The position numbers and the translations under genes were made by a program. Positions 1,069 through 18,152 of a stretch of DNA of 18,254 nt are shown one piece after another (positions within the stretch are counted from its first letter, which is position 1; each line of letters begins with the position of its first letter). Below the pieces are notes generated by a model. That model made no database searches and was not told the origin of the DNA. It was given only the letters and a program-made list of their open reading frames with translations. The stretch is from Chloroflexota bacterium (GTDB taxonomy: Bacteria > Chloroflexota > Chloroflexia > QHBQ01 > JADMIH01), in NCBI GenBank assembly GCA_015478675.1, contig JADMIH010000069.1, positions 1-18,254 on the forward strand, written 5' to 3'.

Positions 1069-2016
1069 TCAACGCCCTGACAAACGAGGATCGAATGCCT
1101 CGTTCAGGCCATCAGCCACGAGGTTCATCGCCAGTACGGTCAGGGTGATGGCAAGCCCGGGAAAAGCTGAAATCCACCAGGCCTGACGCACGAACTGCTG
1201 CGCGTCGTTGAGTATAATACCCCAGCTCATGACGTTGCGATCGCCCAACCCCAGGAAGGAGAGACCCGCTTCCGTGAGTATGGCCCCTCCCACCTGGAGT
1301 GCTGCTTGAGTGATAACCGGGGGGAGCGCTGCGGGTAGCACGTGGCGTATCAGTATACCCGGCTCACTCACACCGATAGCACGCGCGGCCACAACGTAGT
1401 CGCGCGTGCGTAGCGATAGCACCTGAGAGCGTAGCAGCCGCGCTGTGCTCGGCCACATCGTCAGGCCGAGCACCAGCACAATCAGCCATATGCTTCCTCC
1501 GAAGAGGGACACGACGACCAGTACCAGGAAGAAGCGAGGCACCACCATGAACACTTCAGTCAGGCGCATCAGCACGTCGTCTACCAGGCTACCGGCGTAA
1601 CCGGCCAACCCGCCGACCAGCACCCCAATGAGGGTAGCTGTAAGGGCGGAGACGAGGCCCACCAACAGCGAGACACGAGCGCCGTGTACCACTCCGCTAA
1701 AGACGTCTCGACCCAGATCATCGGTGCCGAACAGGTGCACAGCCGAAGGCGGGCGGAATGCCTCGGTCGAGGTGCTGAACGGATCGTGCGGCGCGATCAC
1801 GTCTGCGCCCACGGCTGTGACTATCAGCACGAGCATTATGATAGCCCCGACCGCTGTAGCAGGCTGCCGCAGTATCCGCGGCAGTATCCGCGGCAGTATC
1901 CGCGACCAGAATCGTGCGCTCGCTCCGGAGCCACGACGCCCGCCCACTCCAGGCGCTGAAGCGGTCAGGGGCCCGGCAGTCTCGCCTTGCACGTCTCTAA
2001 CCTCTCCGACCGCCAT
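1069..2016 (-). CDS. ABC transporter permease, DppC/NikC type
   Basis: Inner-membrane permease of the dipeptide/oligopeptide/nickel importer class, 315 residues, full length. It has a first membrane segment near residues 55-75 and further hydrophobic spans. The cytoplasmic EAA loop that docks on the ATPase is readable (RDYVVAARAIGVSEPGILIR). The protein ends in the family-typical D-P-R-L. The start codon follows the stop of the partner permease after a single base, so the two are translationally coupled. The N-terminal tail holds a tandem R-I-L-P repeat encoded by three identical 12-bp units. Substrate cannot be read from the sequence: peptide and nickel-chelate transport are both possible, and the nickel hydrogenase nearby is only contextual support. 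Confidence 0.9.
   Translation of the reverse strand: MAVGEVRDVQGETAGPLTASAPGVGGRRGSGASARFWSRILPRILPRILRQPATAVGAIIMLVLIVTAVGADVIAPHDPFSTSTEAFRPPSAVHLFGTDDLGRDVFSGVVHGARVSLLVGLVSALTATLIGVLVGGLAGYAGSLVDDVLMRLTEVFMVVPRFFLVLVVVSLFGGSIWLIVLVLGLTMWPSTARLLRSQVLSLRTRDYVVAARAIGVSEPGILIRHVLPAALPPVITQAALQVGGAILTEAGLSFLGLGDRNVMSWGIILNDAQQFVRQAWWISAFPGLAITLTVLAMNLVADGLNEAFDPRLSGR
1869..1904. repeat. Three perfect 12-bp tandem repeats inside the permease gene
   Basis: The unit GCAGTATCCGCG occurs three times head to tail. On the coding (minus) strand it adds copies of R-I-L-P to the cytoplasmic N-terminal tail, just before the first membrane segment. Copy number may vary by slippage without breaking the frame. 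Confidence 0.95.
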
Positions 2017-2017
2017 C

Positions 2018-3043
2018 TTAGCTGTACCTCACACGTGGGTCGAGCCATACATATGCCAGGTCTGTGAGCAGATTGGCTACCACAACGGTCACTGAGACCA
2101 TGATAAAGATAGCCATCAAGAGTGGGTAGTCGCGGCTGAGGGTCGCGCCCAGGAGCAACCGCCCCAGGCCCGGCCACGCGAAGATCACCTCGGTGAGCGC
2201 CGCACCGGTGAGCATCGTACCGACGTGCCCGCCTACGACCGTTACAACAGGCAGCAGAGCGTTACGCAGGGCGTGGCGCGTCAGCACAGCCCGCTCCGAA
2301 AGCCCTTTGGCGCGGGCTGTACGCACAAAGTCCTCGCTCAGCATCTCTCGCAGGCTGGTGCGCGTCAAGCGTGAGGTGACACCAAGCTGCAACATACCCA
2401 GTGAGACTGCGGGCAGCACGAGGTGGTTCAGCACGTCTCCTACTGCCTGTAGGCCCGTGTAGCTCTCTCTGACAGATGAGATACCCTGTACCGGGAACCA
2501 CTTGAGCCACACCGCGAAGACGATTACAAGCAGTTGGCCGAGCCAGAAGACCGGCATCGAGTAAGCCGCCAGCGTAGCAGCGGTGATGCAGTAGTCGAGT
2601 GGCGTGCGCGGACGCCTGGCGGCGAGCACCCCAAGTAGCAACCCGACGGTTGTCGAGAAGAGAAGCGCACTCCCCATGAGCAGCAGCGTTGCGGGCAGCC
2701 GGCTCAGGATCACACTGAAGACCGGCTGCTGGTAGCTGAACGAGTAGCCGAAGTCGCCATGTAGAACCGCAAAGAGGTACCGCACGAGCTGCTCAGGCAG
2801 CGAGCGGTCAAGGCCGTAATAGGCATGCATCTGTGCGTAATAGGCTGCGTCTCCGCCGTCGCCCGCCAGTATGTAGATAGGATCGCCGGGGGCGAGGTGG
2901 ATGAGCATGAAGGTGAGCACCAGCACACCAAGCAGCACGGGTACGGCCTGCAACATGCGGCGGAGCAGATACCTGCCCAGGAAAAAGCCTCTTACGCTTC
3001 CTCTATCCAACGTGCCTGCTCTACCCTGTGCGCTGGTGCTCAC
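2018..3043 (-). CDS. ABC transporter permease, DppB/NikB type
   Basis: Inner-membrane permease partner of the gene at 1069-2016, 341 residues, normal for the family. The N-terminal R-Y-L-L-R-R-M-L-Q-A-V-P start of the first helix and the L-I-H-L-A-P-G-D-P segment after it are typical of DppB/NikB. The EAA loop reads EDFVRTARAKGLSERAVLTR. The protein ends with the family-typical W-L-D-P-R-V-R-Y. The start is a GTG 12 nt after the stop of the binding-protein gene, with a purine-rich AGTAGAG before it. The permease pair would form the heterodimeric channel. Confidence 0.9.
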   Translation of the reverse strand: MSTSAQGRAGTLDRGSVRGFFLGRYLLRRMLQAVPVLLGVLVLTFMLIHLAPGDPIYILAGDGGDAAYYAQMHAYYGLDRSLPEQLVRYLFAVLHGDFGYSFSYQQPVFSVILSRLPATLLLMGSALLFSTTVGLLLGVLAARRPRTPLDYCITAATLAAYSMPVFWLGQLLVIVFAVWLKWFPVQGISSVRESYTGLQAVGDVLNHLVLPAVSLGMLQLGVTSRLTRTSLREMLSEDFVRTARAKGLSERAVLTRHALRNALLPVVTVVGGHVGTMLTGAALTEVIFAWPGLGRLLLGATLSRDYPLLMAIFIMVSVTVVVANLLTDLAYVWLDPRVRYS

Positions 3044-3055
3044 CTCTACTTATCT

Positions 3056-5209
3056 CTACTTACCGGCATCCGTCGTCCAGGCCGTCTCAACAAGGGGGCC
3101 TTTGGAAACCTGGAAGCCCTTGAACACAGCGCGATATGCCCTGTACCCCTGGGAGTCTACGAGCCAGAAGTATGGCAGGTCGCCGGTGATGATCTTTTGA
3201 ATCTGGGCATATATCGCGGCGCGCTGCGTCCGGTCAGTGAGGGCTGCTGCCTGATCGAACAACTGGTCTACTGTAGGATTCTTGTAGCCCGCGCCGTTGG
3301 AGAAAGCGATTGGCCCTATGTTGCTCGAAACATACGCGCGGCGCACGCCGACCTCCGGGTCCGACCCGTTGCAGTAGGAGGCAATACCCAGGTCGAAGTT
3401 CTTCTTTACGAAGACTTTATCCACCGCCGTATTGAAATCCAGGCTTTCCTGGTTGAGAGTAATACCCACCTGCTTCAGTTCGTCGGCCATCGCCGCCCCT
3501 AGCTTATCGAATGAGGTAGCATGCGTGAAGGTAATGGCGAATCGCGTGCCGTCAGCGCCGCGAGGGTAGCCCGCCTGGTCGAGCAGTTGGTTAGCCATAG
3601 CTACATCGTAGGGGTACGTGGTCACATCGGAGGTATAAGCCCACACCATCTGCTTGCTTATCGGCCCTGTCGAGAGCGTGCCCTGGTTGAAGTACACCTG
3701 GTTGAGGATGAACTGCCGGTCCAGAGCCATGTAGAAGGCCTGCCGCACCTGTAGCTTATCGAAGGGCGATTTGGTCAGGTTGGGGATAAGTGTGTCCTGG
3801 CATACGCTCCCTCCTGAACCGCCGTAGCCTTGCGCAAGGGTGATCTCTTTGTTATTTTGCAGGCGCTGAAGGTCAGAACCTTGCACTGAGCCGATGTAGT
3901 CCACCTCTCCCTGTTCGAGGGCCTGGGCTGCGGTGCTCGCGTTCGGTATGATACGGTAGATTACTTTATCGAGGTATGGCAGCCCTGCTCTGAAGTAATC
4001 AGGGTTGCGCTGTAGCGTTACATTGTCGCCTTTCACGTAGCCCACAAACTTGAAAGGCCCTGTGCCGATAGGCGTGAGATTGGCGGGGTCGTTTTGCACA
4101 TCCTTGCCCTGGTAGATGTGCATCGGGATGATCGGCGCTTCCACCACATCCAGGCGTTGCAGCAACGGGCCGTAAGGCTGCTTCAGACGGAACACCACAG
4201 TATTAGTATCGGGCGTATCTATGCCGTCGAGCACCGGCGCAAGCCCAGCCTTCGTGCGCGCATGGTACTTCAGCAGGGCCTGCTCGAAGCTGAACTTAAC
4301 ATCGGCAGAGGTAAAAGCTACGCCGTCGTGCCACTTCACGTTCGGTTGCAGGTGAAACGTGTATGTTTTGCCGTCAGAGCTGATCTCCCAACTCTTCGCC
4401 AGCTCAGGGATAGGATTGAGGCTGTCGTCGAGGCCGACCAGGCCGTTATAGATTTGGTCTGCTACCGAGTGAGTGTTACCCGAGGTGGTGATGGCAGGGT
4501 TGAGTTGGCCGGGATCGGTGCCTATCGCTATGACTGCTGTGCCTCCGTACTTGGGTGTACCGGCGGCATACTTACGACCGTACTGGAAGCGGCCCAGCAG
4601 CGAGAGGAGCACGTCGTTAGGAGCCGCATTTTCCGGGTGCGCCTCGAATACCGCACGCTCGAAATACTGTACAGTGTAGGTCTTGCCGTCTGTCTGGCTG
4701 ACCTCCTGGAACTCGTTGGTGAGGGGATAGCCCATCTGTGCCAGGCCCCCGTGAGACTCCCAGTAGGTGCGAAACTTGCCGCCCACCACTTTGCTCGTCT
4801 TATCGAACTTCAGTGGATTGTCGGTGCTGGCCTTCTCACCCGGCACACCCAGAGGGTGTGAGAGCTTGAGTTGGGAGACGCCGAGGAGGGAGAGGAGTAT
4901 ATCGTAGGGGGCCTGGTTCTCCGGGTGCGCCTCGAATACCGCACGCTCGAAATACTGTACAGTGTAGGTCTTGCCGTCCGTCTCCGACTTCTCCTGCATC
5001 TCTGACGAGATAGGCAGTCCTTGCTGCGCCAGCCCTCCGTGGCTGTTCCAGTAGGTGAGGAACTTGCCTTGTACCGTTTTGCCGGTCTGCGGAAACGTCT
5101 GAGAGCCGCTTTGCGCATGGCTTGTGCTCCCATCAAAGGCAGGAAGTGCAAGCGCTGCAAGCATAAGGGCGGCGAGTATAGATACCCACTTTGATGTCCA
5201 TCTGACCAT
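3056..5209 (-). CDS. Extracellular solute-binding protein (family 5) with two N-terminal repeat domains
   Basis: First gene of the importer operon, 717 residues, much longer than the roughly 500-550 residues usual for family 5. Residues 1-33 form a Sec-type signal with no lipobox Cys. Two tandem repeats follow at about 38-110 and 133-206. Each carries a Y-W-x-S-H-G-G-L-A-Q core and a shared T-D-G-K-T-Y-T-V-Q-Y-F-E-R-A-V-F-E segment. The binding domain starts near residue 220 (YGGTAVIAIGTDPGQLNPAI) and keeps the family motif around L-A-K-S-W-E and W-H-D-G-V-A-F-T-S-A-D-V. The repeats may act as a wall- or membrane-associating module in place of a lipid anchor. That is inference. Ligand unknown: peptides, nickel chelate or other small molecules. 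Confidence 0.88.
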   Translation of the reverse strand: MVRWTSKWVSILAALMLAALALPAFDGSTSHAQSGSQTFPQTGKTVQGKFLTYWNSHGGLAQQGLPISSEMQEKSETDGKTYTVQYFERAVFEAHPENQAPYDILLSLLGVSQLKLSHPLGVPGEKASTDNPLKFDKTSKVVGGKFRTYWESHGGLAQMGYPLTNEFQEVSQTDGKTYTVQYFERAVFEAHPENAAPNDVLLSLLGRFQYGRKYAAGTPKYGGTAVIAIGTDPGQLNPAITTSGNTHSVADQIYNGLVGLDDSLNPIPELAKSWEISSDGKTYTFHLQPNVKWHDGVAFTSADVKFSFEQALLKYHARTKAGLAPVLDGIDTPDTNTVVFRLKQPYGPLLQRLDVVEAPIIPMHIYQGKDVQNDPANLTPIGTGPFKFVGYVKGDNVTLQRNPDYFRAGLPYLDKVIYRIIPNASTAAQALEQGEVDYIGSVQGSDLQRLQNNKEITLAQGYGGSGGSVCQDTLIPNLTKSPFDKLQVRQAFYMALDRQFILNQVYFNQGTLSTGPISKQMVWAYTSDVTTYPYDVAMANQLLDQAGYPRGADGTRFAITFTHATSFDKLGAAMADELKQVGITLNQESLDFNTAVDKVFVKKNFDLGIASYCNGSDPEVGVRRAYVSSNIGPIAFSNGAGYKNPTVDQLFDQAAALTDRTQRAAIYAQIQKIITGDLPYFWLVDSQGYRAYRAVFKGFQVSKGPLVETAWTTDAGK
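4632..4978. repeat. 59-bp identical pair inside the binding-protein gene
   Basis: Bases 4632-4690 and 4920-4978 are identical over 59 bp, with a 288-bp offset. They encode the same stretch of the two N-terminal protein repeats, while the DNA around them has diverged. This includes identical synonymous positions, which points to recent duplication or local gene conversion rather than protein-level constraint alone. Confidence 0.9.
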
Positions 5210-5496: not shown

Positions 5497-6093
5497 TTAA
5501 CGCGCCTCGAACTGCTCAAAACAAGGGATGCACAGATTTTGCCCATCGTAGCGGCGGAGGCGCGTCTCCATCGTCATCTCCCCACACTTATCGCACTGTA
5601 CCGACTGGTGCATCCGCGCTTGCCTGGGCACTTGAGCTTCGATCTCCCTGGTTTCGAATAGCTGCTCCTCAGGCACGCTCAAAATCGAGAGGGCGCGTTC
5701 TTCCTGGAGTTCCCAGTAGCGGCGCTGCTCGGCTTCGGTAGCAGCGCCCGCCCGCACCTTCTGAAAGAGAGCCGCACGCTCCGGGTTGTCCTGCCCCCAG
5801 GCATTCGGGCGTGTGACTATGCGCACCGCCTTACCGTCAGCACGACGTATAAAGGTGTAGGCGTTCTTGCCGTAATCGCGGTGTATAAGGTTGCCCTTGC
5901 CGAATGTGCAGCCGGTCAGCATCTGTATAGCATCCACAGCACACATGTCGGTTTCAACGATAGCGACCACTTCTTCGTCCTCGGAGTGAGGACCAATCTC
6001 GCGGAGGGCGATTTGCGCTGCCCGCACTCCCATCGTCAGACCGCCACACAAGTGCCCATGGAAATCGCGGACCTTCTGGATTGTTTCGTCCAT
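5497..6093 (-). CDS. FmdE-family protein with C-terminal zinc ribbon
   Basis: 198 residues. The N-terminal part is the FmdE domain, named after formylmethanofuran dehydrogenase subunit E. It shows F-H-G-H-L-C16-G-G, then T-D-M-C51-A-V-D-A-I-Q and T-G-C62-T-F-G-K-G-N, the conserved Cys/His set of the family. Residues 167-191 form a zinc ribbon (C-D-K-C ... C-I-P-C). FmdE-like proteins occur widely outside methanogens, often beside molybdate, tungstate or other metal genes; their biochemical role is not settled. The start is supported by GAGGAG before the ATG. It lies 33 nt after the YkoE-like gene on the same strand and is probably cotranscribed. No formylmethanofuran dehydrogenase subunits are present. 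Confidence 0.85.
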   Translation of the reverse strand: MDETIQKVRDFHGHLCGGLTMGVRAAQIALREIGPHSEDEEVVAIVETDMCAVDAIQMLTGCTFGKGNLIHRDYGKNAYTFIRRADGKAVRIVTRPNAWGQDNPERAALFQKVRAGAATEAEQRRYWELQEERALSILSVPEEQLFETREIEAQVPRQARMHQSVQCDKCGEMTMETRLRRYDGQNLCIPCFEQFEAR

Positions 6094-6126
6094 CGTACTC
6101 CTCTATCTCCAGCCTGGAGCAGACTT

Positions 6127-6828
6127 CTAGCCTGGTAGTTGCGGCACGTGAGCAGGAGTGTGGTCTAGACGAGATTGAAGCCTCTCTACCAGCCCGGTAC
6201 GCTCGATCAATTTGGCGAGCGCCCAGCCTACCAGGCCGCTCAACACGCCGACGACAAGCAGCGCCAGTATCTCGCCGCCAAGGAACGTTTGCCACGGTGC
6301 AAACTGCTCGGCCTGCGCGTTGCTCATACCGGCCATACCGCCCATCTTCATTTGTGCGCCGGTGCCAACACTGCCGGTGGCGACGGCGTTGGTGCCGCCA
6401 ATTGCCGAGGTCACCATGGCCCACAGGTTTTCGAGCGTCTTCGCCCCGATTCCTCCCGCCAAAAACGCGCTCAACGCATCAAACCGGCGGTAGCGGAAAA
6501 AGGCAAAAGCAACTTCAGCCCCTGTGCCCTCAAGTAGGCCGAAAAGGAGATTGCTGAGGTCGCCATTTGCGATTGCCTGAACGCTGCCGTAAATCAGAGC
6601 AGTGGCAAGCGCCACGCCTGGCTTACGCAACAGCAGCATCACTATTACAGGGGCCATTGTAAAGAAGGAGCCATATGGCACCCTTGCGCCCCAGAGCATA
6701 AAGTGGTTGTGCACGATAGAAGAGATGGTGACATTGACGATGCCACCCAGGATGCCGAATGCCAACACAATTGCGGCATCAGAAACTGTATAACTTGCAA
6801 CTCGTTGTAACTGCTTCACGGCTGCCAT
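6127..6828 (-). CDS. YkoE-like ECF transporter S-component
   Basis: Integral membrane protein of 233 residues from the chosen ATG. That start (M-A-A-V-K-Q) is preferred over one 51 nt upstream because a perfect AGGAGG (6835-6840) sits six bases before it. Five to six hydrophobic spans are visible. The segment L-R-K-P-G-V-A-L ... N-G-D-L-S-N-L-L-F-G-L-L-E-G-T-G-A-E-V-A-F-A resembles YkoE-type substrate-binding components of energy-coupling-factor importers. No EcfA or EcfT gene is adjacent, so it would borrow a shared module or work alone. A loop before the last membrane spans is rich in Met (QMKMGGMAGM), which may bind a soft metal. YkoE itself is linked to thiamine precursors, so a metal role here is inference from neighbours. 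Confidence 0.65.
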   Translation of the reverse strand: MAAVKQLQRVASYTVSDAAIVLAFGILGGIVNVTISSIVHNHFMLWGARVPYGSFFTMAPVIVMLLLRKPGVALATALIYGSVQAIANGDLSNLLFGLLEGTGAEVAFAFFRYRRFDALSAFLAGGIGAKTLENLWAMVTSAIGGTNAVATGSVGTGAQMKMGGMAGMSNAQAEQFAPWQTFLGGEILALLVVGVLSGLVGWALAKLIERTGLVERLQSRLDHTPAHVPQLPG

Positions 6829-6846
6829 GTGATACCTCCTGTTGGT

Positions 6847-6866
6847 TACAGGGCGACCACCCTGTA
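6847..6866 (-). promoter_or_regulatory. Leader hairpin before the YkoE-like gene
   Basis: TACAGGG (6847-6853) pairs perfectly with CCCTGTA (6860-6866) around a 6-nt loop. It ends six bases before the AGGAGG ribosome-binding site of the gene starting at 6828. It could be an operator half or an RNA structure that tunes translation. I see no known riboswitch consensus. Confidence 0.4.
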
Positions 6867-6945
6867 TCGACGTATTCACTTATCGCCATCTTCCATAGGC
6901 ACTCTCTCTTGTTCGTCATCTCGCGCCTGCAAGACCCCAAACCTC

Positions 6946-8621: not shown

Positions 8622-9203
8622 CTAACTACCTGTGTGCTTCTCACACCCCGCTGGCGTGGGCGCAGACGCGAGGAGGCGGACTTCCCGCACCAGCCGCTCG
8701 ACACTCGGCTCCACTGCTGCCGCTACCGGCTCGCTCAGGCCGATCTCAAACTCGTCTATATGGTGTGGCTGGCAGCCGAATATGTAGACTAGAGGAGGCA
8801 GCACGCCCAGGCTCTTTGCCAGCACGAAAGCCCGCGACGGTGTTGCCAGGTGTATATCTGCCATCAACTCCTGCTGGTGCTCAAGAGGCATGTCGATGAG
8901 GTTGGGCACCTCCGCTTCTAATAAGTAAGTCGTGCCGGGTTCTCCGCCGCGATCTACAGCATCTACAACAACCAGTGCATCGTAACCTGCAAACAACTCC
9001 TGCACCATGCTCATCCCACCTATGCCCACCTCCATCACGGTGACGCTGGGTGGCACATCTGCGCGCATGAGCCGTTGCGCAACTTCGACGCCGAAGCCGT
9101 CATCGCCCTGTAGCACATTCCCCACGCCTACAACCAGCACGCGACGCGGCGCAGTAACCTCTGGAGCCGTGACCGCTTCTTCTTCTACAGCTTCTACAGG
9201 CAC
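8622..9203 (-). CDS. [NiFe]-hydrogenase maturation endopeptidase (HycI/HupD family)
   Basis: 193-residue protease that removes the C-terminal tail of the large subunit once nickel is in place. The glycine-rich start V-V-G-V-G-N-V-L-Q-G-D-D-G-F-G (25-38) and the V-V-V-D-A-V-D-R-G-G-E-P-G strand (78-90) are family hallmarks. The expected nickel-sensing ligands are D35, D81 or D84, and a His in the 109-118 region. The first 20 residues are an acidic extension ahead of the conserved core. The start is a GTG six bases after the stop of the NifU-Rieske gene, so they are coupled. The substrate is most likely the large subunit at 11409-13286, which keeps a 23-residue tail after its last His ligand. 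Confidence 0.9.
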   Translation of the reverse strand: MPVEAVEEEAVTAPEVTAPRRVLVVGVGNVLQGDDGFGVEVAQRLMRADVPPSVTVMEVGIGGMSMVQELFAGYDALVVVDAVDRGGEPGTTYLLEAEVPNLIDMPLEHQQELMADIHLATPSRAFVLAKSLGVLPPLVYIFGCQPHHIDEFEIGLSEPVAAAVEPSVERLVREVRLLASAPTPAGCEKHTGS

Positions 9204-9209
9204 AGCAGC

Positions 9210-10142
9210 TTATCCTAACGCCACCGGCTCGACGTTGAGGGCGAGTTGAATTGTGCCATCGCGCACAGCTACCGGGATCACCTGCAACCTGCCTTCTCCC
9301 TTATCGACGCGCCGCCCCGTGCGTGCGTCAAAGGCGCAGTTGTGCCAGGGACAAACCAGCACCGTGCCGTTGAGCACCCCCTCATCGAGCGGCAGGTTGG
9401 AGCCTGGGCACTCGTTGCCGTAAGCATATACCTCGCCTCCTACGTTGCACAGCAGGATGCGTTTTCCATCTACTTGCACAGCCCTCATCGACTGGGGAGG
9501 CAATGCTTCGATATAGCCGACGGTTGTGAAGACCGGGCGATTGAGCGTTCTTGCCTCCGCCCCGACCTGCTGCAAAGGGATGAAGCTAGCGGGTAACTTT
9601 CTTTGCGCCACGTCTACAGGCTCATGGACCTCGATACTCTGGAAACCCGGAAAGCCCTCTTGCAGTGCTGCCTCGATACCGCGCTTCAGCGTCATCGCGG
9701 AGCCTGCACAGCCCTGGCAGGCCCCGCTGAGGCGTATATGTACCACGCCGTCCACCACGTCGAGGATCTCTACAGCACCGCCATGGGACTGGATGTAGGG
9801 CCGAACTCCCTCAAGCGCCAGTTCGGCTTGCTCTCGCGGCTCTGGCTCTCCGGGCCCCAGGTCGTAGAGTTGGAGAAGCATATCAATCGCAGGGTCGCCT
9901 AGCGCTTTTTCGAGCACTGCCGGGCTACCCGTCCAGAGTAGCTCCACCAGGCGGTACACGCCGTCGCGGTGGAGTGCGTCTATCAGGCTGAGCATCTCAA
10001 GAGCGTCGCTACGCACCGCTTCTATCGGGTGCTGCTCAAAACTCTGCACCAGGGCGTCCAACCGCAGAGCGATCTGTGAAAGGCTCTCCTGGGAGGTCTG
10101 AGAGGTAATCTCTGTTGTACCGTTTTCCATGGATCTGCTCAT
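9210..10142 (-). CDS. NifU-like/Rieske-like fusion protein of hydrogenase operons
   Basis: 310 residues in three parts: a helical N-terminal region (about 15-110), a NifU C-terminal-type domain (about 105-170) with C142-Q-G-C145 after a G-G-A-V-E-I-L segment, and a C-terminal Rieske-like domain (about 205-305). The NifU motif is the kind that holds a transient [4Fe-4S] cluster for delivery. The Rieske part keeps C264-P-W-H267, but the first pair is C245-P-G247, so one His ligand is missing and a standard [2Fe-2S] cluster is unlikely. Similar fusions accompany group 1h hydrogenases, and a role in cluster assembly or electron transfer is inferred. The ATG at 10142 has AGGTGG six bases upstream. 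Confidence 0.85.
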   Translation of the reverse strand: MSRSMENGTTEITSQTSQESLSQIALRLDALVQSFEQHPIEAVRSDALEMLSLIDALHRDGVYRLVELLWTGSPAVLEKALGDPAIDMLLQLYDLGPGEPEPREQAELALEGVRPYIQSHGGAVEILDVVDGVVHIRLSGACQGCAGSAMTLKRGIEAALQEGFPGFQSIEVHEPVDVAQRKLPASFIPLQQVGAEARTLNRPVFTTVGYIEALPPQSMRAVQVDGKRILLCNVGGEVYAYGNECPGSNLPLDEGVLNGTVLVCPWHNCAFDARTGRRVDKGEGRLQVIPVAVRDGTIQLALNVEPVALG

Positions 10143-10271: not shown

Positions 10272-10730
10272 TCACAGCCTGACCTCAGAAGCTATGCTAC
10301 GGCAATGCACGCAGTCCTCGGGTGGAAGGTCTTTGCAGATAGGGCAGTTGGGGGGGCAGTCGCCATGGCCTTGCTTGGTAATATCCGCGAACTCGTCAGC
10401 GAAGCGGCGTGCGCCCTCCCTGGCACCGAATTCGGTGAAGGAATAGTGCGGCACGTCACCCTGGCTATGCCTTTGCAGGAAACCCGCCTTTACCATCTGC
10501 TCCAGGTGGCCGCCGATGGCCTCTTCATCGATCGCCGTGAGGAAAGTCCGCAGCTCACGCGCCGCGATTTCAGTGCCGAAGCCCTCGCCCTGGTACCAGT
10601 ACATCATTTGCAAGATCTCGTCACGCCAGAAGAGGTCCGAGAGCAGCGGCCTGCTCTCGCCTCCGTACTCTCCGCCCTCCATGTTATCTCCGGCGCTGCT
10701 GTTGTGCACTTGCTTCTCATACTCCTGCAT
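10272..10730 (-). CDS. Winged-helix-like protein with a C-terminal Cys cluster
   Basis: 152 residues. Residues 28-110 look like a winged-helix fold: F-W-R-D-E-I-L-Q-M-M-Y-W-Y, a helix pair ending in H-L-E-Q-M-V-K-A-G-F-L, then a short H-Y-S-F-T-E-F-G wing typical of small transcription factors. The C-terminus holds H122 and C125-x3-C129-x2-C132-x7-C140-x2-C143, a likely zinc or iron-sulfur site. The ATG at 10730 overlaps the stop of the gene before it (TAATG). It may be a metal- or redox-responsive regulator of the locus or an accessory factor. I cannot name a family. Confidence 0.75.
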   Translation of the reverse strand: MQEYEKQVHNSSAGDNMEGGEYGGESRPLLSDLFWRDEILQMMYWYQGEGFGTEIAARELRTFLTAIDEEAIGGHLEQMVKAGFLQRHSQGDVPHYSFTEFGAREGARRFADEFADITKQGHGDCPPNCPICKDLPPEDCVHCRSIASEVRL

Positions 10731-11416
10731 TATCTTTGCGCCTCCACGACACTACCCGCGGGAGTTTCGGGTACAGAGGCTCTATCCTGAATCTCGTTGG
10801 TGAAATTGCTGACGTCATGCACGCCAGTTGCAGCCTGCACCCCGAATGGGCTTGCTGGCAATCCGTCCAGAGGCCCCAGAGCCATCTTGCGCACAGAGGA
10901 TAAGATAGCGGGCACAGCGGCTGCTACGCGGTCGCTCAACTCTGCACCGAACTCCTCCTCACACGGCTCTACCTCTATTACAGCTACCTCAGCAGGCCAT
11001 ACCCCAAAATACTCACCTATAATCAGCAGATTATCCAGGCCGATTATGCCGGTCACCGCCTCGCATACGCGCTGCTGTATCTCGTCCGCAGCCGGCAGCG
11101 TCCCGTTCCATCTGTACGTGTAAACGGCCCCAGGCTCGCGGTTCCGGGTGACACCCGACAAGAGAATGATTCGGCTGTAGTAGCCAGGCTTCTCCTGGAG
11201 CCACTGCATGACGTGGATCGGCCCGAAGTGGATGTCGTAAATCTCCACGCCCTCCGGCCATTCCAGCTTCTGTAGGGCGGGCACGAGCGTGGGGCCAACC
11301 GAGACATCCCGCAGGAAGGGGTGCCCCACACCACCGATCAGGGTGTGCCCTCCTTGATACTCCCTACCTCCCTTATCGCACCGGTCTACCCGATCCTCTT
11401 GTGCTCTGTCAGTCAT
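10730..11416 (-). CDS. Divergent HycI-fold protein, probably not a protease
   Basis: 228 residues. The layout follows the hydrogenase endopeptidase family: a glycine strand L-I-G-G-V-G-H-P-F-L-R-D-V-S-V-G-P (27-42), a second strand L-L-S-G-V-T-R-N-R-E-P-G-A-V-Y (85-99), and an E-V-E-P ... L-S-D-R-V-A-A-A-V-P ending typical of the fold. The acidic residues used to sense nickel are replaced: the G-D-D/E-G position reads R-D-V-S, and the V-D-A strand reads L-S-G. It is therefore likely a catalytically dead or repurposed paralogue beside the intact protease at 8622-9203. It starts eight bases inside the 3' end of the large-subunit gene, so it is translationally coupled. A chaperone-like role for the large subunit is inferred. 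Confidence 0.75.
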   Translation of the reverse strand: MTDRAQEDRVDRCDKGGREYQGGHTLIGGVGHPFLRDVSVGPTLVPALQKLEWPEGVEIYDIHFGPIHVMQWLQEKPGYYSRIILLSGVTRNREPGAVYTYRWNGTLPAADEIQQRVCEAVTGIIGLDNLLIIGEYFGVWPAEVAVIEVEPCEEEFGAELSDRVAAAVPAILSSVRKMALGPLDGLPASPFGVQAATGVHDVSNFTNEIQDRASVPETPAGSVVEAQR

Positions 11417-13286
11417 CTATGCCACAGGCGCATGTATTGACCTCTCTCGTGATCACCCGGTCCGAGCCGCTCACATGAACGTGGGTGGTGCAGGGCATAC
11501 AAGGGTCAAAGCTGCGTATGGTACGCAATATATCTATGCCTTTGTATTCTGCTTCGCTGGAGAAGTTCTCAAGAATAGGAGTGTTGAGCACCGACTCCTC
11601 GTAAGGTCCCGGCTGGCCCCAGGGGTCCTTGGGGCTAGCGTTGAAGGTCGAAGGCGTCAATATCTGGTAGTTGCTGAGCGCGCCGTGATCTATAGTGGCG
11701 TGATGGGTCAGGAATCCTCGTCCCGCACCCCAGAAGCCGACGCCGATCTGCGAACCCTTGCGCGGCGTCTCAAACGGAGTATGCACCTGCGTTTTGCCTT
11801 GCTTGAGCAAGTCCATGCACACAAGCCAGTTGTCGAGGGCCACCACCGTAGTCATCACCAGGTGGTAAGCGCGGCCCCGGTTGCGCTCAAAAGCGTTCCA
11901 CACATCGGGTATATGCCACTCCATGTCCATAGCGGGGAGAGTGCTCTCCGGCACGTGCATTCGCAGGCTCGTGCCCGTAGGCTCCAGGAACCGAGTGTGG
12001 GGCAGCACACCGCCTGCCGCCGTGTTCCACAGGCGAGCCGAACATTCGGCCTCCATTACCTTGCGGTCCCAACGAGGTGACGTGGACCACGAGTACTTTT
12101 CGCGCCAGTTCTGGCCGACAGGGCGGGGCTTGGTCTCCTTATTCCACATGTGATAAGGGCTGATGGGGTTGCCCACAGGATCGGTTTGGAAGCGTGGAGT
12201 GTCCCAGTTCTCGTAGTACGAATGCTCTACGAACTCTTCGAGGCCGATATTGAGCGCCTGGAGCTTGGTGGTAACCAGCTGCCCGTCCACGATCACGCCG
12301 GGTGTAGCCCAGCGACGCTCGCCCCACTCGTTGCAGTTGGCGTAGGTGCCATCGTAGGAGAACGGATCGTCCCATATGCCGGTGTCTATCATGTTGGCGG
12401 GCCGCACGCCGGTCTTCTTGTAATCGGGGTTGGCATCGTAGAAAAAATCTACTATATCGTCCCATATACAGGCTGTTTTCTTGCAGTAATCGAACAGTTG
12501 GCGCAGATGGGTGTATACCTCGTTGAAGACGGTGAGGCTTATCGTAGTGCTCATACCACCGGGGATCACCGTTTCGGGGTGCGGGTACTTTGCGCCTATC
12601 AGCACGTATGCTTCGCGTGCGGTGCGCGTCATGGCAAGCCCCGCCAGGTACAGCGCGCCTGTGAGGGGGTTGAGATCGGTCATGATATCACCGACCGTTT
12701 TGTAGCCGTGCACCTCGGCGTGCGGCGCTGGGGTGTGCCGGGCCTTCTCCCAAACCTCTGGATTGGTCGTCTGCACTATAGCTTGCGAGTAGTCAGGCCC
12801 CGCCAGCAAGAATAGGTGCAGCGGGTTGTCGTACCAAAACTCAAGGGCCATCATCAGGTTACGCAAGGCGATGCCCAGAGGAGGCGGGGCCACGGGGAAG
12901 GCCATCTCCATACAGAGGGCCGACACCGTGGAATGCACACCGCCGCACACGCCGCAGGCCCGGCTGCTGATAAAAGCGGCATCGCGTGGATCTCGGCCTT
13001 TGAGGATGACCTCGTACCCTCGGAAAAGGGTAGCCATCGAGTTCGTCTCGATCACCCGCCGCTCTTTCAGGTCTACTACCGAGTGGAACGCAAGCGCGCC
13101 CGCCACTCGCGTAACAGGGTCGAAGTTGACCGACTTGATATGGCCATTACGCTCCAAAAGGTCTTTGATCCGGTCGGCCTGCTCGTCGAGGGACCGCGTT
13201 TCGTAGGAGTATGGATTACGCACTCCCTCTTTGAGGTATGCTTTGCCATTCGCATCAAATTCTATCGGCAGATTCTTGAAGCACAT
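11409..13286 (-). CDS. hhyL: [NiFe]-hydrogenase large subunit, group 1h
   Basis: 625-residue catalytic subunit that splits H2 at a Ni-Fe(CN)2CO site. The N-terminal L1 motif is R109-A-C111-G-V-C114-G-G-V-H118, and the C-terminal L2 motif is D594-P-C596-M-P-C599-T-T-H602. The four metal-binding Cys are all Cys, with no selenocysteine here. A 23-residue tail follows H602 and would be cut off by the endopeptidase at 8622-9203. Insertions in the middle and the tail ending T-C-A-C-G-I-D-D resemble high-affinity group 1h (formerly group 5) enzymes that consume atmospheric H2. AGGAGAGC precedes the ATG. The small subunit lies upstream at 15092-16462, separated by five small membrane-protein genes rather than being adjacent. 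Confidence 0.95.
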   Translation of the reverse strand: MCFKNLPIEFDANGKAYLKEGVRNPYSYETRSLDEQADRIKDLLERNGHIKSVNFDPVTRVAGALAFHSVVDLKERRVIETNSMATLFRGYEVILKGRDPRDAAFISSRACGVCGGVHSTVSALCMEMAFPVAPPPLGIALRNLMMALEFWYDNPLHLFLLAGPDYSQAIVQTTNPEVWEKARHTPAPHAEVHGYKTVGDIMTDLNPLTGALYLAGLAMTRTAREAYVLIGAKYPHPETVIPGGMSTTISLTVFNEVYTHLRQLFDYCKKTACIWDDIVDFFYDANPDYKKTGVRPANMIDTGIWDDPFSYDGTYANCNEWGERRWATPGVIVDGQLVTTKLQALNIGLEEFVEHSYYENWDTPRFQTDPVGNPISPYHMWNKETKPRPVGQNWREKYSWSTSPRWDRKVMEAECSARLWNTAAGGVLPHTRFLEPTGTSLRMHVPESTLPAMDMEWHIPDVWNAFERNRGRAYHLVMTTVVALDNWLVCMDLLKQGKTQVHTPFETPRKGSQIGVGFWGAGRGFLTHHATIDHGALSNYQILTPSTFNASPKDPWGQPGPYEESVLNTPILENFSSEAEYKGIDILRTIRSFDPCMPCTTHVHVSGSDRVITREVNTCACGIDD

Positions 13287-13346: not shown

Positions 13347-13616
13347 TTAGCTCTGAACGGCTTGTATTACTTTCACAAGGTTAACGTCCACAGAAGTCAG
13401 CCCATCTCGCAACGCGACAGCTGCGCCGTTGATGGCAGTAAGGTCTTCGGCCAGAGGCGCTGTATTGTCACGGATCGCCACAAGACCGCCATCGAGCTTC
13501 GCCAGGTTGCTATTGGCGTGCAGTAGGGCCACCGCGATCTGCACTAGGTAAAACGCCACCACGCCGACGACGGCGGTGGCAACGAGGAGCGTCAATCGGG
13601 TCAGCAGCGTCTTCAC
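13347..13616 (-). CDS. Small membrane protein, fifth of an array (E)
   Basis: 89 residues: one N-terminal membrane span (about 8-30), then an amphipathic helical tail with hydrophobic residues at heptad-like spacing. The tail reads I-R-D-N-T-A-P-L-A-E-D-L-T-A-I-N and ends V-D-V-N-L-V-K-V-I-Q-A-V. It pairs best with array member C (13960-14259), with which it shares the T-x6-L/V-T-x-I/L-N and V-D-x-x-L-x-x-V spacing. It starts with GTG inside the stop of member D (GTGA overlap). A 60-nt gap with a ribosome-binding site separates it from hhyL. No known family; a membrane scaffold for the hydrogenase is inferred from context. Confidence 0.75.
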   Translation of the reverse strand: MKTLLTRLTLLVATAVVGVVAFYLVQIAVALLHANSNLAKLDGGLVAIRDNTAPLAEDLTAINGAAVALRDGLTSVDVNLVKVIQAVQS

Positions 13617-13963
13617 AGTTGGACCTCCTCTGTCTTGCCGTTTCCGGTACCGTTGCCTGAGTTGGCGCTCGGTTGCGGGACAGCAGCCGGAGCAAGGGCC
13701 GCTGCGATTGTAGCTGTATGCCCTTCAAGGGAGCCTGCTGCCGCCAGCAATCCTGTGGCCGCAGAGATCGTATCCTTGAGAGCCGCTACATTAGCGGTGT
13801 TTTCGGCTATCCTGACACCCCCATCGAGCGCCTCTGCTGTGTACCGCTCGATGTTACGTGCGGCGTCAAGCGCGCGTGACAACAGTGTTACGGCAGCAGG
13901 CACTACAGCCGCGACAGTAGCGATGAGCATACCCCACCAGATAAGAGCGATTCCACGATTCAC
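13613..13963 (-). CDS. Small membrane protein, fourth of an array (D)
   Basis: 116 residues: one membrane span (about 6-28), a helical tail, and a Gly/Asn/Thr-rich polar C-terminus (about 98-112). The tail carries I-A-E-N-T-A-N-V-A-A-L-K-D-T and L-E-G-H-T-A-T-I-A-A-A-L, which align with array members A and B. Its GTG start overlaps the stop of member C by four bases, and its own stop overlaps the start of member E, so C, D and E are translated as a coupled set. The unusual flexible C-terminal tail is absent from the other members. Confidence 0.75.
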   Translation of the reverse strand: MNRGIALIWWGMLIATVAAVVPAAVTLLSRALDAARNIERYTAEALDGGVRIAENTANVAALKDTISAATGLLAAAGSLEGHTATIAAALAPAAVPQPSANSGNGTGNGKTEEVQL

Positions 13964-14259
13964 AGGGCGCCCTCCTTCCCTTTTGACAAAGCCTGCGCCA
14001 CCGGTCCGAGATGGCCGTCAACTACCCCCAGGTTCCCCGCCAGCGTGGTTAGCCCCGCATTTAGCTGCGTTACCTGTGGAGCCAGATAGCTGGTCTCCTT
14101 ATCTATGGCGCGCACGCCATAACCGAGCCGCGCCAGGTAGCTGTTGGCAGAGCCTCCAATACTTTCCAGGGCAGAAACGATCCGGCCCAGGAAATAGACC
14201 AAAGCGCCTGCGAACGCAAGTACTTCCAGGGCTGACAGAATGGTGAGTCGAATGCGCAT
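13960..14259 (-). CDS. Small membrane protein, third of an array (C)
   Basis: 99 residues: one N-terminal membrane span (about 7-28) and a helical tail with I-D-K-E-T-S-Y-L-A-P-Q-V-T-Q-L-N and V-D-G-H-L-G-P-V-A-Q-A-L. It is most like member E and less like A, B and D. AAGGAG lies seven bases before the ATG. No Cys or heme motif is present, so it does not carry a redox cofactor by itself. Confidence 0.75.
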   Translation of the reverse strand: MRIRLTILSALEVLAFAGALVYFLGRIVSALESIGGSANSYLARLGYGVRAIDKETSYLAPQVTQLNAGLTTLAGNLGVVDGHLGPVAQALSKGKEGAL

Positions 14260-14288
14260 TGGGTAGCTCCTTGTCAGGCTTGTCAGGT

Positions 14289-14627
14289 TTATTGGGCCTC
14301 TGCCTGCTCGCCTTCGCCTACTACCACTGCCGCTTGAATGCGGCTGGTGGCCCCCGCGATCCCCTCGCTTGTCGCCACTATATTGGCGGCGACCTGGTTT
14401 GTGCGGGCCAGCATCGGTATATGGACGGTGTTGTTGGCGATCAGCTTGCCGGTTTCCCAGACTTGAGCAGCGCCGCCGTTGATCTGCTCTGCTGTGCGGG
14501 TAAGCGTATTCAGCAGCAAGGCGACTACCCCCACCACCACAGCCCCCAGCGTGAGGCTGATACCCCAGTATTTTGCTATCGCCCCGTCAAGTGCGCGCTT
14601 GTCTGCGCTCTTCTTTGCGTGCTTCAT
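14289..14627 (-). CDS. Small membrane protein, second of an array (B)
   Basis: 112 residues from the chosen ATG. A GTG 21 nt upstream is also open, but it would overlap the GGGGAGG ribosome-binding site. A basic N-terminus (K-H-A-K-K-S-A-D-K-R) precedes the membrane span (about 21-40), which predicts the tail outside the cytoplasm by the positive-inside rule. The tail reads I-A-N-N-T-V-H-I-P-M-L-A-R-T-N-Q-V-A and aligns closely with member A. A 29-nt gap leads to member C. Confidence 0.72.
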   Translation of the reverse strand: MKHAKKSADKRALDGAIAKYWGISLTLGAVVVGVVALLLNTLTRTAEQINGGAAQVWETGKLIANNTVHIPMLARTNQVAANIVATSEGIAGATSRIQAAVVVGEGEQAEAQ

Positions 14628-14686
14628 AGTAAGTTGGTTCCTCCCCACACTGGCGTCAATAGGCTCGACACTGCTGATGTCAGCTA

Positions 14687-14983
14687 TCAGCGCGCGGCAG
14701 GAGCTGGCGCTTCGAGAGCATCAGCTATCTGCGTAGCGTGTTGCTCGATAGCTTTGGCACCCTCTAGAAGCTCATTGGCAACAGAGTTAGTCTTTTCCAG
14801 GTCCCAGATCGGCTGCGTATTGCTGACGATTTCCTTAGCAACGCCAAGCGCGTGCGTGGCGTTTCGGAGGATGCTGCGCGCCACGCCGATGATCGTGAGC
14901 AAAAGTGCCGCTACAACGGCCACCACCGCACCGGCAATGCCCATGCCCAGATACCAATTACCCAGAAACTTCCGCTTGGTCAT
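14687..14983 (-). CDS. Small membrane protein, first of an array (A)
   Basis: 98 residues with a basic N-terminus, one membrane span (about 11-33) and a helical tail: I-V-S-N-T-Q-P-I-W-D-L-E-K-T-N-S-V-A followed by I-E-Q-H-A-T-Q-I-A-D-A-L. GAGGAGG lies five bases before the ATG, the strongest ribosome-binding site of the array. It follows the small-subunit gene by 108 nt. That gap contains a short CCCAC/GTGGG hairpin (15049-15062) that may separate the small-subunit message from the array. No homologous family is known to me. Confidence 0.75.
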   Translation of the reverse strand: MTKRKFLGNWYLGMGIAGAVVAVVAALLLTIIGVARSILRNATHALGVAKEIVSNTQPIWDLEKTNSVANELLEGAKAIEQHATQIADALEAPAPAAR

Positions 14984-15091: not shown

Positions 15092-16462
15092 TTAGTCCTC
15101 AGGGCCCGGCTCCGGATGATGTGGCTGTAGCCCCTCGTGCACGGGTGGTGCGCCCGTCTGCCCAGGCCGCGTACCCGGCGCTTTATAGCCGTCACGGTAC
15201 TGCTCATAGGAGTGGGTGCGCCCTGGGGTCTCGGTGTCAAAGTGCTGCAATTTTTCATAGAAAAAGTGCGTGACCTTCTTCAGGGGTCCCGGGTCATCAA
15301 TGTGGCCCCAGCCGCTCGGCACCTGGTCCTTCAAGTCCCACAGCGGCTCGCGGTTCTGAAACTGCATCGTGAGGCGGCGGAGCGGGCGAATGAACGAGCC
15401 AGTAGTCCGTGAGGCCGTGGAAGAGACAGTAGAACCCGGGGAGCGTTTGTAGAATGGCGCGAAGCGGTCGGGGAAGCCAGGCATGGTGCAGCCGATGCAG
15501 ACGCCCCCGGTATTCATGCAGCCGCCGTAGTGGTTTATAGCGCCGCGCTTGGTGATGTTGCACTGCACGACCGGCCCCCAGCAACCGATCTCCACCAGGC
15601 ACTCCTTGTCGCCGTAGTGATGTGCGAAAATGCCCTCCTCGTAGAAGCCGCCGCGCACACACTGCTGGTGTACCGTGTCCTTGAAGAGCCAGGAAGGGCG
15701 ACCCAATTCGTCGAACTCAGGCAAGGGGCCGAGACCATTGAGGAAGAGCAAAACGGCGTTCACAGTCTCGGTGAAGTTGTCACCTATCGGTGAGCAACCG
15801 GGCACGTTGATGACGGGAAGCCCCAGAGCGCTAACGTAGTCTTGTCCTAAAAAGTCCATCACGCTCATTGCACCTGTAGGATTGCCGTAGGCAGCCGGTA
15901 TGCCTCCCCACGTCGCACAGGTGCCGATGGCAAGCACCGCCGCAGCGCCGGGGGCCAGGCGCTTGAGCCACGCGGAGGTGGGAATGGGTTTGTTCTGGCC
16001 GTCCACTGTTTCGACACCCATACCGCACCAGTACCCGCCTGTTTCAGAGGCAAGGCTTTCGTTGGCGATTGACCCTTCGTATATGACAACATAGGGTGTG
16101 TTGAGCTTGCCTTCAGCCGCAAGCTCGTAATTGTGCATAAACGCTTCGCCCGATTCCACTGAGGTTACAGGATGATGTAACACAACGCGCGGCACACCCG
16201 GTATTCGTCCGATCAGCAAGTCCTCGACGCTGGGAGCGGTCGCGCCCGTCACGGCCACTGTGCAGCCGTCGCAGCTCATCCCCGCGAGCCAATAGGCATG
16301 CACCACCTTCACCGGGCCAAGCAGCGCACCGGCACGTTCCTCTCCTGGGGCCTTCTTCATTTCTCGATCGGCACTGGAGGTCAGCCAATCAACTGCCCCT
16401 ACTCGCTCCTCAACATCGGCCTCAATGAGGGGCGAGGCGGGTGTTGTTACTTGCTCGGCCAT
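15092..16462 (-). CDS. hhyS: [NiFe]-hydrogenase small subunit, group 1h
   Basis: 456-residue electron-transfer subunit with three Fe-S clusters. Proximal ligands are C64-D-G-C67, C182 (G-T-C-A-T-W-G-G) and C223 (V-P-G-C-S-P-I-G). Distal ligands are H265-x2-C268, C288 and C294. Medial ligands are C301 and C322-I-G-C325, with C315 as a possible extra ligand that would fit a [4Fe-4S] medial cluster. There is no twin-arginine signal, so the enzyme is made on the cytoplasmic side. A roughly 90-residue C-terminal extension rich in charged residues and Pro follows the last cluster; such extensions help pack group 1h enzymes into larger assemblies. GGAAGGGAG precedes the ATG. Confidence 0.93.
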   Translation of the reverse strand: MAEQVTTPASPLIEADVEERVGAVDWLTSSADREMKKAPGEERAGALLGPVKVVHAYWLAGMSCDGCTVAVTGATAPSVEDLLIGRIPGVPRVVLHHPVTSVESGEAFMHNYELAAEGKLNTPYVVIYEGSIANESLASETGGYWCGMGVETVDGQNKPIPTSAWLKRLAPGAAAVLAIGTCATWGGIPAAYGNPTGAMSVMDFLGQDYVSALGLPVINVPGCSPIGDNFTETVNAVLLFLNGLGPLPEFDELGRPSWLFKDTVHQQCVRGGFYEEGIFAHHYGDKECLVEIGCWGPVVQCNITKRGAINHYGGCMNTGGVCIGCTMPGFPDRFAPFYKRSPGSTVSSTASRTTGSFIRPLRRLTMQFQNREPLWDLKDQVPSGWGHIDDPGPLKKVTHFFYEKLQHFDTETPGRTHSYEQYRDGYKAPGTRPGQTGAPPVHEGLQPHHPEPGPED

Positions 16463-16640: not shown

Positions 16641-17435
16641 CTAGCCGGTGGTCGCTTCTGAGGGGGACTCTTGAAGCAGCCTGTCAACCAGTTGGTCAAC
16701 CAGGCCGACGTAGCCCGGCTGAGGCTGGCGGTCGAGGACAGGAGTGCCCGCGTTATCGGCCTGCCGCACGTCGTCGTCAAAGGGGAGCACAGCGATGATC
16801 TCAAGGTCGCGCTCGGCGCAGTAATGGCGGATAGCTTCTTCATCCTGGATAGACCGCACTTTGTTCGCCACCACGTAGACCTTCTTAATGCCCAGGCCAC
16901 GAGCCAGATTAGCTGTGCGCCCCGTGGTCTCCAGCGAGCGGTAATATGGCTCGGTGACTATGAGCATCACATCGGTATAGCGAACGGTGCCACGGCTCAT
17001 ATGCTCTATTGAGGCTTCCATATCCACGATAGTAAGCTCGTCTGCCTGCTCCATAAGCTGGCTCAACATGCCACGCACGGTGGCATGCGCTCCGCAGAGT
17101 CAGCCGGCGCCTGGGTGATCAACGTGAGCCGTAAGCAGCAGAGTGACGTTATCGGGGCCGACTACACCGTGCTCGGCGGTAACGTCGGACATCGGCTGAG
17201 TGAGGGTCAGCTGCTTTGCGCCGTAGGGGTCTGCATGCTCTTGGAGGATCGTGCGTGGGAGCGCATGGAGGGAAGAAAGTCCTTGCTGCGTGATACCGAG
17301 GGCCACCCCCAGGTTGGGGTTGGGGTCGCCGTCTATCGCCAGCACGGAGTATCCGCGCCGGGCAAACAGACGCGCAAGGGTCGCCGAGAGCGTTGTTTTA
17401 CCTGAGCCACCTTTACCAGAGACAGCCAGCTTCAT
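16641..17435 (-). CDS. cooC: CooC-type ATPase with an in-frame TGA, candidate selenoprotein (U-x-C)
   Basis: The reading frame is open from ATG 17435 to 16641 except for one TGA at 17102-17100. Read through, it gives 264 residues, matching the 261-residue CooC at 7000-7785. Walker A (GKGGSGKTT) is at 7-15, D-G-D-P-N-P-N-L at 35-42, and T-I-V-D-M-E-A-S-I-E-H-M-S-R-G-T lies after the TGA. Both halves are clearly CooC and need no frameshift. The TGA is codon 112, between G111 and L113-C114. The sister protein has G111-C112-R113-C114, so TGA replaces the first Cys of the nickel-binding CxC motif. A stem-loop follows directly. Selenocysteine is the best reading. A single-base error (TGC to TGA) or a recent nonsense mutation are the alternatives. 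AAGGAG precedes the start. Confidence 0.8.
17056..17105 (-). promoter_or_regulatory. Candidate bacterial SECIS element
   Basis: In the mRNA, CAUGCCAC (17087-17080) and GUGGCAUG (17074-17067) form a perfect 8-bp stem closed by the loop CGUGC (17079-17075). The loop begins 20 nt after the UGA. A lower stem, GGCUG-A-CUC with GAG-C-CAGCU (17105-17097 with 17064-17056), brackets the UGA itself with one mismatch. The bacterial SECIS description I recall asks for an upper stem of 4-16 bp, a 3-14 nt loop with G among its first two bases, and a 16-37 nt distance from UGA. All are met by hand folding; no energy calculation was done. Confidence 0.6.
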
Positions 17436-17943: not shown

Positions 17944-18152
17944 GTAACTGTTCAGAGTTAGGGTGGAGGGGCGTACCCTCACGCACCCCATGCCCCTCTC
18001 CCATGAAGGGAGAGGGGGCTTTAATCACCTTTGTAACCCCGTCAGGGGCCTGCCCCTGTGCACTCAGCATGCACAAAGCCCCCTCTCCCACAAGGGGAGA
18101 GGGGCTGGGGTGAGGGGAGGGACACCCCTCCACCCTAACTCTGAACAGTTAC
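17944..18152. mobile_element. Intact MITE with IS66-like ends
   Basis: 209 bp with perfect 28-bp terminal inverted repeats (17944-17971 and 18125-18152) that begin GTAACTGTTCAGAG. It is flanked by an exact 8-bp direct repeat, AAAAATAA (17936-17943 and 18153-18160), so insertion was recent enough to leave both intact. The interior holds G/C-rich hairpins (CTCTCCC with GGGAGAG near 18083-18104) and no gene. Ends starting GTAA with an 8-bp duplication are the hallmark of the IS66 family, so an IS66-type transposase probably moves it. Related copies lie at 1-73 and 83-280. Confidence 0.9.

Follow-up and report, generated by a model that had tools for sequence, protein, structure and literature searches.

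CooC1 of Carboxydothermus hydrogenoformans, which serves CO dehydrogenase, is the closest described relative of the protein reported here. In CooC1, zinc is bound at the dimer interface by Cys112 and Cys114 of both subunits, and nickel competes for this site with a Kd of 0.4 uM, one nickel being bound per dimer. The protein dimerizes with ADP and/or zinc, and metal binding seems to be promoted by ADP (PMC6006190). In [NiFe]-hydrogenase assembly, the nickel-insertion step is reported to require HypB-type GTPases, which act with HypA (PMC12134894). Hydrogenase clusters of group 1l contain five genes for short predicted transmembrane proteins between the subunit genes, and a CooC-type nickel-insertion ATPase has been named in the clusters of group 1m (PMC9561532).

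Selenocysteine (Sec) is inserted at TGA codons, and bacterial SECIS elements are stem-loops located immediately 3′ of the TGA (PMC9312934). The table of 119 prokaryotic selenoprotein families in a 2026 review lists no CooC; it includes a cobalamin synthesis CobW-related selenoprotein, which belongs to a different family and has the motif UxxC (PMC13188914). The term ‘CooC’ is absent from the main texts of four papers (PMC13188914, PMC12013277, PMC9312934 and PMC5029168). No report of a selenoprotein CooC was found among the papers listed in full-text literature searches, which reach only a minority of subscription papers, preprints, supplements and annotations present in databases alone; a preliminary description of this locus likewise knew of none. 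The CobW-related family is related to metal-chaperone NTPases.

Here we analysed an 18,254-nucleotide stretch of DNA from a Chloroflexota bacterium (hereafter, the window), which carries a cooC gene interrupted by a single TGA. From the sequence comparisons described below, we consider it highly probable that the product is a CooC-type ATPase in which TGA112 is read as selenocysteine, and that this ATPase likely acts as a chaperone inserting nickel into the group 1l-type [NiFe]-hydrogenase encoded next to it.

The TGA-bearing cooC gene and its neighbours

The gene, referred to as cooC(U), occupies positions 16641–17435 on the minus strand (264 codons) and is the first gene ahead of the hydrogenase small-subunit gene. 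Read-through translation of 17435–16641 confirmed the full-length frame reported in the preliminary description: the sole internal stop is the TGA at codon 112 (17100–17102, minus strand), a predicted selenocysteine codon at a position occupied by Cys in nearly all of the homologues listed, and the gene ends in TAG. The local sequence is G-[TGA]-L-C-G-A-H-A, in which codon 114 (TGC, 17094–17096, minus strand) is, by alignment, the second residue of a U-x-C metal motif. A second cooC gene in the window (7785–7000, minus strand; alternative ORF start at 7902) shares 41% identity with cooC(U) and, as had been described, encodes Cys at codon 112 (TGT); its codon 114 is TGC. No second TGA-interrupted gene was seen among the listed frames of the window, and no tRNA gene was found in it.

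The genes following cooC(U) on the minus strand encode a hylS-like [NiFe]-hydrogenase small subunit (15092–16462; Pfam PF14720 and PF01058), five small consecutive proteins resembling HylTM1–5 (13347–14983), a hylL-like large subunit (11409–13286; Pfam PF00374), a hydrogenase maturation protease-like protein (10730–11416), a protein with NifU and Rieske domains (9210–10142; Pfam PF01106 and PF00355) and a hydrogenase maturation protease (8622–9203), with both protease-type proteins matching TIGR00072 over its cut-off. The five small genes, for which no NCBIfam match was found, lie between the subunit genes, which is the arrangement of group 1l; judged from this gene arrangement, the cluster is of the group 1l type. 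It resembles the group 1m clusters in having a CooC-type gene within a high-affinity hydrogenase cluster, but differs from them in its 1l arrangement and in the selenocysteine predicted here, which is not mentioned in the part of that report concerned with the group 1m CooC (PMC9561532).

A peptide/nickel-type ABC importer, consisting of two permeases and a substrate-binding protein, is encoded at 1069–5209 (minus strand), and its matches to nickel and oligopeptide families were all under the curated cut-offs. In the substrate-binding protein (3056–5209, 717 aa), a tandem pair of repeats, each about 70 residues long, was seen by eye ahead of the binding domain. Between the Cys-type cooC and the importer are genes for a protein with an FmdE domain and a zinc-finger tail (5497–6093) and an ABC_cobalt permease-like membrane protein (6127–6879). 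Upstream of cooC(U), an inverted repeat at 17944–18152, whose 52-nt arms are 85% complementary and separated by 105 nt, resembles a small MITE-type transposable element.

Recurrence of the TGA codon in related genes

A genome-contig scan for relatives yielded 80 loci, and the matches were read codon by codon in 85 homologous stretches including the window. Codon 112 was TGA in 27 of these, Cys in 57 (TGC in 36 and TGT in 21) and Pro (CCG) in one divergent stretch; neither TAA nor TAG was found at this position in the 85 stretches. The 26 TGA loci other than the window (L001–L022, L027, L080 and stretches in L044 and L046) originate from Chloroflexi, Herpetosiphonaceae, Thermomicrobiaceae, Rubrobacter, Acidobacteria, Pyrinomonadaceae and Chloracidobacterium, so that the TGA form is present in at least three phyla (Chloroflexota, Acidobacteriota and that of Rubrobacter). 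Two of these loci, L009 and L010, are identical, and L010 and L014 share one genome.

Surveys for cooC matches at E 1e-40 covered 400 genomes from the L002 phylum (Chloroflexota), 396 from the L019 phylum (Acidobacteriota) and 39 from the L006 class (Rubrobacteraceae), of which 25, 2 and 10, respectively, contained a match. These surveys added seven TGA genes (L123–L126, L129, L156 and L157) and three close relatives with Cys (L122, L127 and L128), bringing the TGA-bearing genes to 34. The homologue search proposed in the preliminary description thus found TGA/Cys pairs at position 112 in many relatives, and the presence of the same TGA in 26 other fetched loci and seven survey loci is beyond chance.

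Predicted metal site and function of CooC(U)

Residues 1–247 of CooC(U) align with CooC1 of C. hydrogenoformans (PDB 3kje; E 8.1e-33), which is the best sequence match, and residues 112 and 114 align position-for-position with the metal-binding Cys112 and Cys114 of that structure. The deviant Walker A motif (KGGxGKTT) is found as GKGGSGKTT at residues 7–15, aligned to GKGGVGKTT of 3kje, and the C-x-C metal-ligand pair is invariant in 49 aligned rows, in which C112 of the query stands for the TGA. An AlphaFold2 model of CooC(U), with Cys placed at 112, had a mean pLDDT of 87.7, and its best Foldseek match was again 3kje (E 6.2e-15; TM 0.75 by query length), with MinD-type and nitrogenase Fe-protein folds ranking close behind. 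CooC(U) is therefore like CooC1 in its deviant Walker A motif, ligand positions and fold, but CooC1 has Cys at 112 and serves CO dehydrogenase instead of a hydrogenase.

Each of two paired CooC(U) subunits would contribute one U-x-C motif, so that one Ni(II) would be held by two selenolates and two thiolates. Binding of ATP would then open the site so that nickel passes to the hydrogenase large subunit, and hydrolysis would reset the chaperone. Compared with a thiolate, a selenolate ligand is softer and more acidic, and selenium, once oxidized, is more readily returned to its reduced state. Either property could help an aerobe to keep the nickel site usable.

We analysed the presence of the known nickel-insertion partners in 49 genomes carrying these CooC genes. 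HypD was over the cut-off in 40 of the 49, while HypB was over the cut-off in only seven; 36 genomes had some HypB-family match, 29 of these being weaker. HypA exceeded its cut-off in two genomes and was detected under the cut-off in six more. The combination of HypD over and HypB not over the cut-off was found in 15 TGA genomes and 19 Cys genomes. In nine genomes the best HypB-family matches (60–87 bits) are presumably UreG. The draft state of the genomes explains some of the gaps in Hyp proteins, but hardly the whole pattern. Since HypD is common and HypB over the cut-off is rare, CooC, in its Sec or Cys form, probably takes the HypB step in these genomes. In the proposed mechanism, the Sec-containing CooC would replace HypA/HypB, because most of the genomes have HypD without canonical HypB. 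It would act at the same step of [NiFe]-hydrogenase assembly and would likewise be nucleotide-driven (PMC12134894), although HypB is a protein of a different kind.

The selenocysteine could be correctly predicted and the role different, with CooC(U) handling another metal, serving another nickel enzyme or having a redox or storage function. In L002, L044 and L046, the TGA gene is located upstream of a peptide/nickel-type importer with no hydrogenase in the stretches examined, the second, Cys-type CooC of the window also lies near such an importer, and the solved CooC1 structure contains zinc (PMC6006190). On the other hand, genes matching the hydrogenase small or large subunit were found in 19 of the 26 TGA loci; of the seven loci that show no hydrogenase, four (L005, L018, L020 and L080) break off no more than 431 bases from the gene, while L002, L044 and L046 extend further. 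Together with the pattern of HypD and HypB, and with the binding of one nickel per CooC1 dimer at the same site (PMC6006190), these observations make a different role unlikely. The putative nickel-inserting, hydrogenase-related role of CooC(U) is the best reading.

Selenocysteine machinery in the genomes of relatives

To search for the selenocysteine machinery, we compared the 25 genomes behind the 26 TGA loci, which are relatives of the window and not its own genome, with 24 genomes carrying a Cys-type cooC. The latter correspond to 25 of the 54 Cys-only loci of the contig scan, with L030 excluded. SelB and SelA were each over the cut-off in 17 of the 25 TGA genomes, a tRNA-Sec of more than 60 bits was detected in 20, and SelD over the cut-off with an internal TGA was found in 19, whereas each of these four was found in none of the 24 Cys genomes; SelD without a TGA was present in eight of the Cys genomes. 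At least one of SelA, SelB and tRNA-Sec was present in 22 of the 25 TGA genomes and all three in 11, and when TGA-bearing SelD was also counted, every TGA genome (25/25) and no Cys genome (0/24) had at least one component. In three TGA genomes (G004, G015 and G016), no SelA, SelB or tRNA-Sec was found over the threshold, and in G266 SelA was not over the cut-off. The sel genes that the preliminary description had proposed to look for were therefore detected in the relatives, including SelA, SelB, tRNA-Sec and TGA-bearing SelD. One Rubrobacteraceae genome (G014) carries HypD, the TGA-type cooC, tRNA-Sec, SelB and a partial SelA on a single 49-kb contig.

ARAGORN reported tRNA-SeC for all eight tested of the 20 hits in TGA genomes. 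Candidate tRNA-Sec genes in six Cys genomes, near 50 bits and over the Rfam cut-off, were rejected, as ARAGORN identified the best hits as tRNA-Ser (five) or tRNA-Leu (one); this check covered the best hit per Cys genome, with three lesser over-cut-off hits (47–48 bits, in two genomes) lying outside it. Four Cys genomes gave weak SelA matches of about 40 bits, far under the cut-off, which were likewise set aside.

Among 35 genomes examined subsequently, SelA exceeded its cut-off in six of seven genomes with a TGA-type CooC, in one of three with a near Cys relative, in 14 of 17 with a distant Cys-type CooC and in all eight genomes of the Rubrobacter class without a cooC match (8 of 29 such genomes were taken). 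Taken together, 15 of the 20 surveyed genomes with Cys in their listed CooC match have SelA. The relation between TGA-type cooC and the selenocysteine machinery is thus one-way, in that possession of the machinery does not force a Sec-containing CooC.

The SelD genes of 17 TGA-cooC genomes (L158–L174) contain a TGA, and a hairpin was predicted after this TGA in 17 of the 17 stretches. We claim no common loop between the SelD and CooC hairpins of the same genomes from the 17 SelD stretches compared.

Predicted SECIS element downstream of the TGA

In the window, a hairpin that we regard as a predicted SECIS element is located at 17067–17087 on the minus strand, 13–33 nt after the TGA. It has an 8-bp stem (17087–17080 paired with 17074–17067) and a 5-base loop (17079–17075), with 20 bases from the TGA to the loop. 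Taken by itself, this hairpin does not reach significance (27 of 200 shuffles were as good, z −1.14; p = 0.087 against synonymous shuffles), and the evidence for it lies at the level of the group. When the folding energy just past codon 112 was compared with synonymous shuffles, the mean z was −1.18 for 33 TGA genes and −0.25 for 62 Cys genes, from which those under 38% identity had been excluded (Mann–Whitney p = 9e-6, with genes treated as independent despite their relatedness). At other offsets, the same test gave p values of 0.47 (−51), 0.74 (+51), 0.11 (−99), 0.04 (+99) and 0.086 (+150). Similarly, a first version of the test gave a mean z of −1.20 for 26 TGA genes and −0.32 for 54 Cys genes.

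Covariation was analysed in 23 aligned non-Rubrobacter TGA genes, of which 22 were distinct. In the 5-bp core stem, 96.4% of the cells were paired and 19 cells were changed on both sides, and the covariation score was 0.443, compared with at most 0.116 when the stem was slid. Only two of the five pairs covaried. Of five covariation measures, two (the count of covarying pairs and the count of pair types) did not exceed shuffles. In the 8-bp version, the outer three pairs were less conserved, with two of them unpaired in 7 and 12 of the 22 rows, respectively. The complete core stem was found in 21 of 24 non-Rubrobacter TGA genes and in none of 82 Cys genes. The Rubrobacter-type genes have a different 6-bp stem, in another register and picked after viewing the rows, which was present in nine of nine such genes and also in two of the 82 Cys genes. 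Both stems were picked from the TGA sequences, and these counts therefore favour them. The compensatory hairpin right after the TGA, seen across the relatives as a group, is in line with the selenoprotein reading; it would recruit SelB with Sec-tRNA, so that the TGA is decoded as selenocysteine.

Selection, phylogeny and alternative readings of the TGA

In ten pairs of near relatives, dN/dS was 0.006–0.205 before the TGA and 0.049–0.297 after it; low ratios on either side of the TGA are not expected of a broken gene. An eleventh pair, L007/L156, was omitted: its 21% identity and ratio of 1.9 downstream of the TGA arose because the two genes were compared without gaps across a small insertion, and both translations of this pair keep an open frame. 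The loss of purifying selection downstream, named in the preliminary description as evidence against selenocysteine, was accordingly not seen in the relatives.

In a tree of 123 rows, seven label changes were sufficient to account for the Sec, U-x-U and Cys forms, compared with a mean of 29.6 for shuffled labels. Most TGA genes were located in one weakly supported part of the tree (84/30), with L125 falling outside. The Cys forms inside this part, namely, Ktedonobacteraceae-type proteins and L122 with L127 and L128, look like losses of selenocysteine. The tree and the hairpin counts exclude duplicates of earlier loci (L121, L146 and L148–L155) and matches under about 200 residues, including L157; in the tree labels, the database protein P0006 was counted with Cys.

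If the TGA were a true stop, the gene would be broken or would encode two separate proteins. A GTG is located eight codons past the TGA, and four database proteins of 145–148 aa, which match only the residues after the TGA, begin there (P0036, 97% identity; P0095, P0097 and P0104, 85–86%). We infer that these four pieces were cut off at the same TGA. The same TGA, however, is found in 34 genes of distant phyla, with Cys at the site elsewhere, and the aligned frames are free of other stops except the second TGA of L044 and L046. In conjunction with the low dN/dS on both sides, the selenocysteine machinery and the hairpin, these results make a true stop very improbable.

Reading of the TGA as tryptophan or another standard residue, or unspecific readthrough, is extremely improbable. 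Among the 120 homologues listed, four stop short of position 112, and the residue is Cys in 115 of the 116 that reach it; the exception is P0006, with Trp. This protein, identical to L001 at 224 of 254 residues, groups with the TGA-bearing L001 in the tree, and its Trp is thus probably an annotation of the TGA under another genetic code. The same genomes contain a TGA-bearing SelD and tRNA-Sec. Moreover, TGA still serves as a stop near cooC(U), as had been described: hylL, the second cooC and three of the five small array genes end in TGA, while hylS and the other two array genes end in TAA. A sequencing or assembly error is refuted for the family by the recurrence of the codon in 26 other fetched and seven survey loci, and its probability is negligible. 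The pseudogene, tryptophan and sequencing-error readings were accordingly rejected on the basis of recurrence, selection, machinery and nearby TGA stops.

Selenocysteine at position 112 of CooC(U) is about as well supported as sequence data allow: the interpretation given in the preliminary description agrees with the TGA/Cys pairs, the selection, the machinery in relatives and the hairpin.

CooC genes with two TGA codons

Three CooC-family genes contain two TGAs. In L044 (6891–7640) and L046 (3759–4508), both codon 112 and codon 114 are TGA, and the U-x-U cooC of L044 is located directly after a Cys-type CooC gene (6001–6765). The third gene, in L129 (84–758, minus strand), is a distant CooC paralogue of 34% identity with TGAs at its own codons 104 and 106, giving G-TGA-P-TGA-C-G (G-U-P-U-C-G) where the L066 paralogue has G-C-P-C-C-G. 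Considered with L044 and L046, it places the double TGA in two branches of the CooC family, and the L129 branch is probably a second CooC branch using selenocysteine. The U-x-U forms would provide four selenium ligands for the metal.

A broader proposal, to which we give an even chance, is that these genes represent a CooC lineage with Se2S2 nickel sites, and in some Chloroflexota all-selenolate Se4 sites, which loads high-affinity hydrogenases without HypA/HypB, such that selenium would be required for assembly of the enzyme that uses trace hydrogen from air. If the selenocysteine reading is true, CooC(U) would represent a new selenoprotein family in which selenocysteine acts as a transient metal ligand and not as a thiol-type catalyst. 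It would also connect selenium with the way in which soil bacteria assemble their trace-gas hydrogenases, offer a HypA/HypB-free route for nickel loading into [NiFe]-hydrogenases and account for the C-terminal pieces in the databases (four among the 120 homologues listed). Because one protein occurs naturally in Sec, Cys and U-x-U forms, how selenium affects nickel handling can be tested directly. In L046, at 434–2821 and upstream of its U-x-U cooC, ORFs like the RuBisCO large subunit and phosphoribulokinase (named by eye) were observed.
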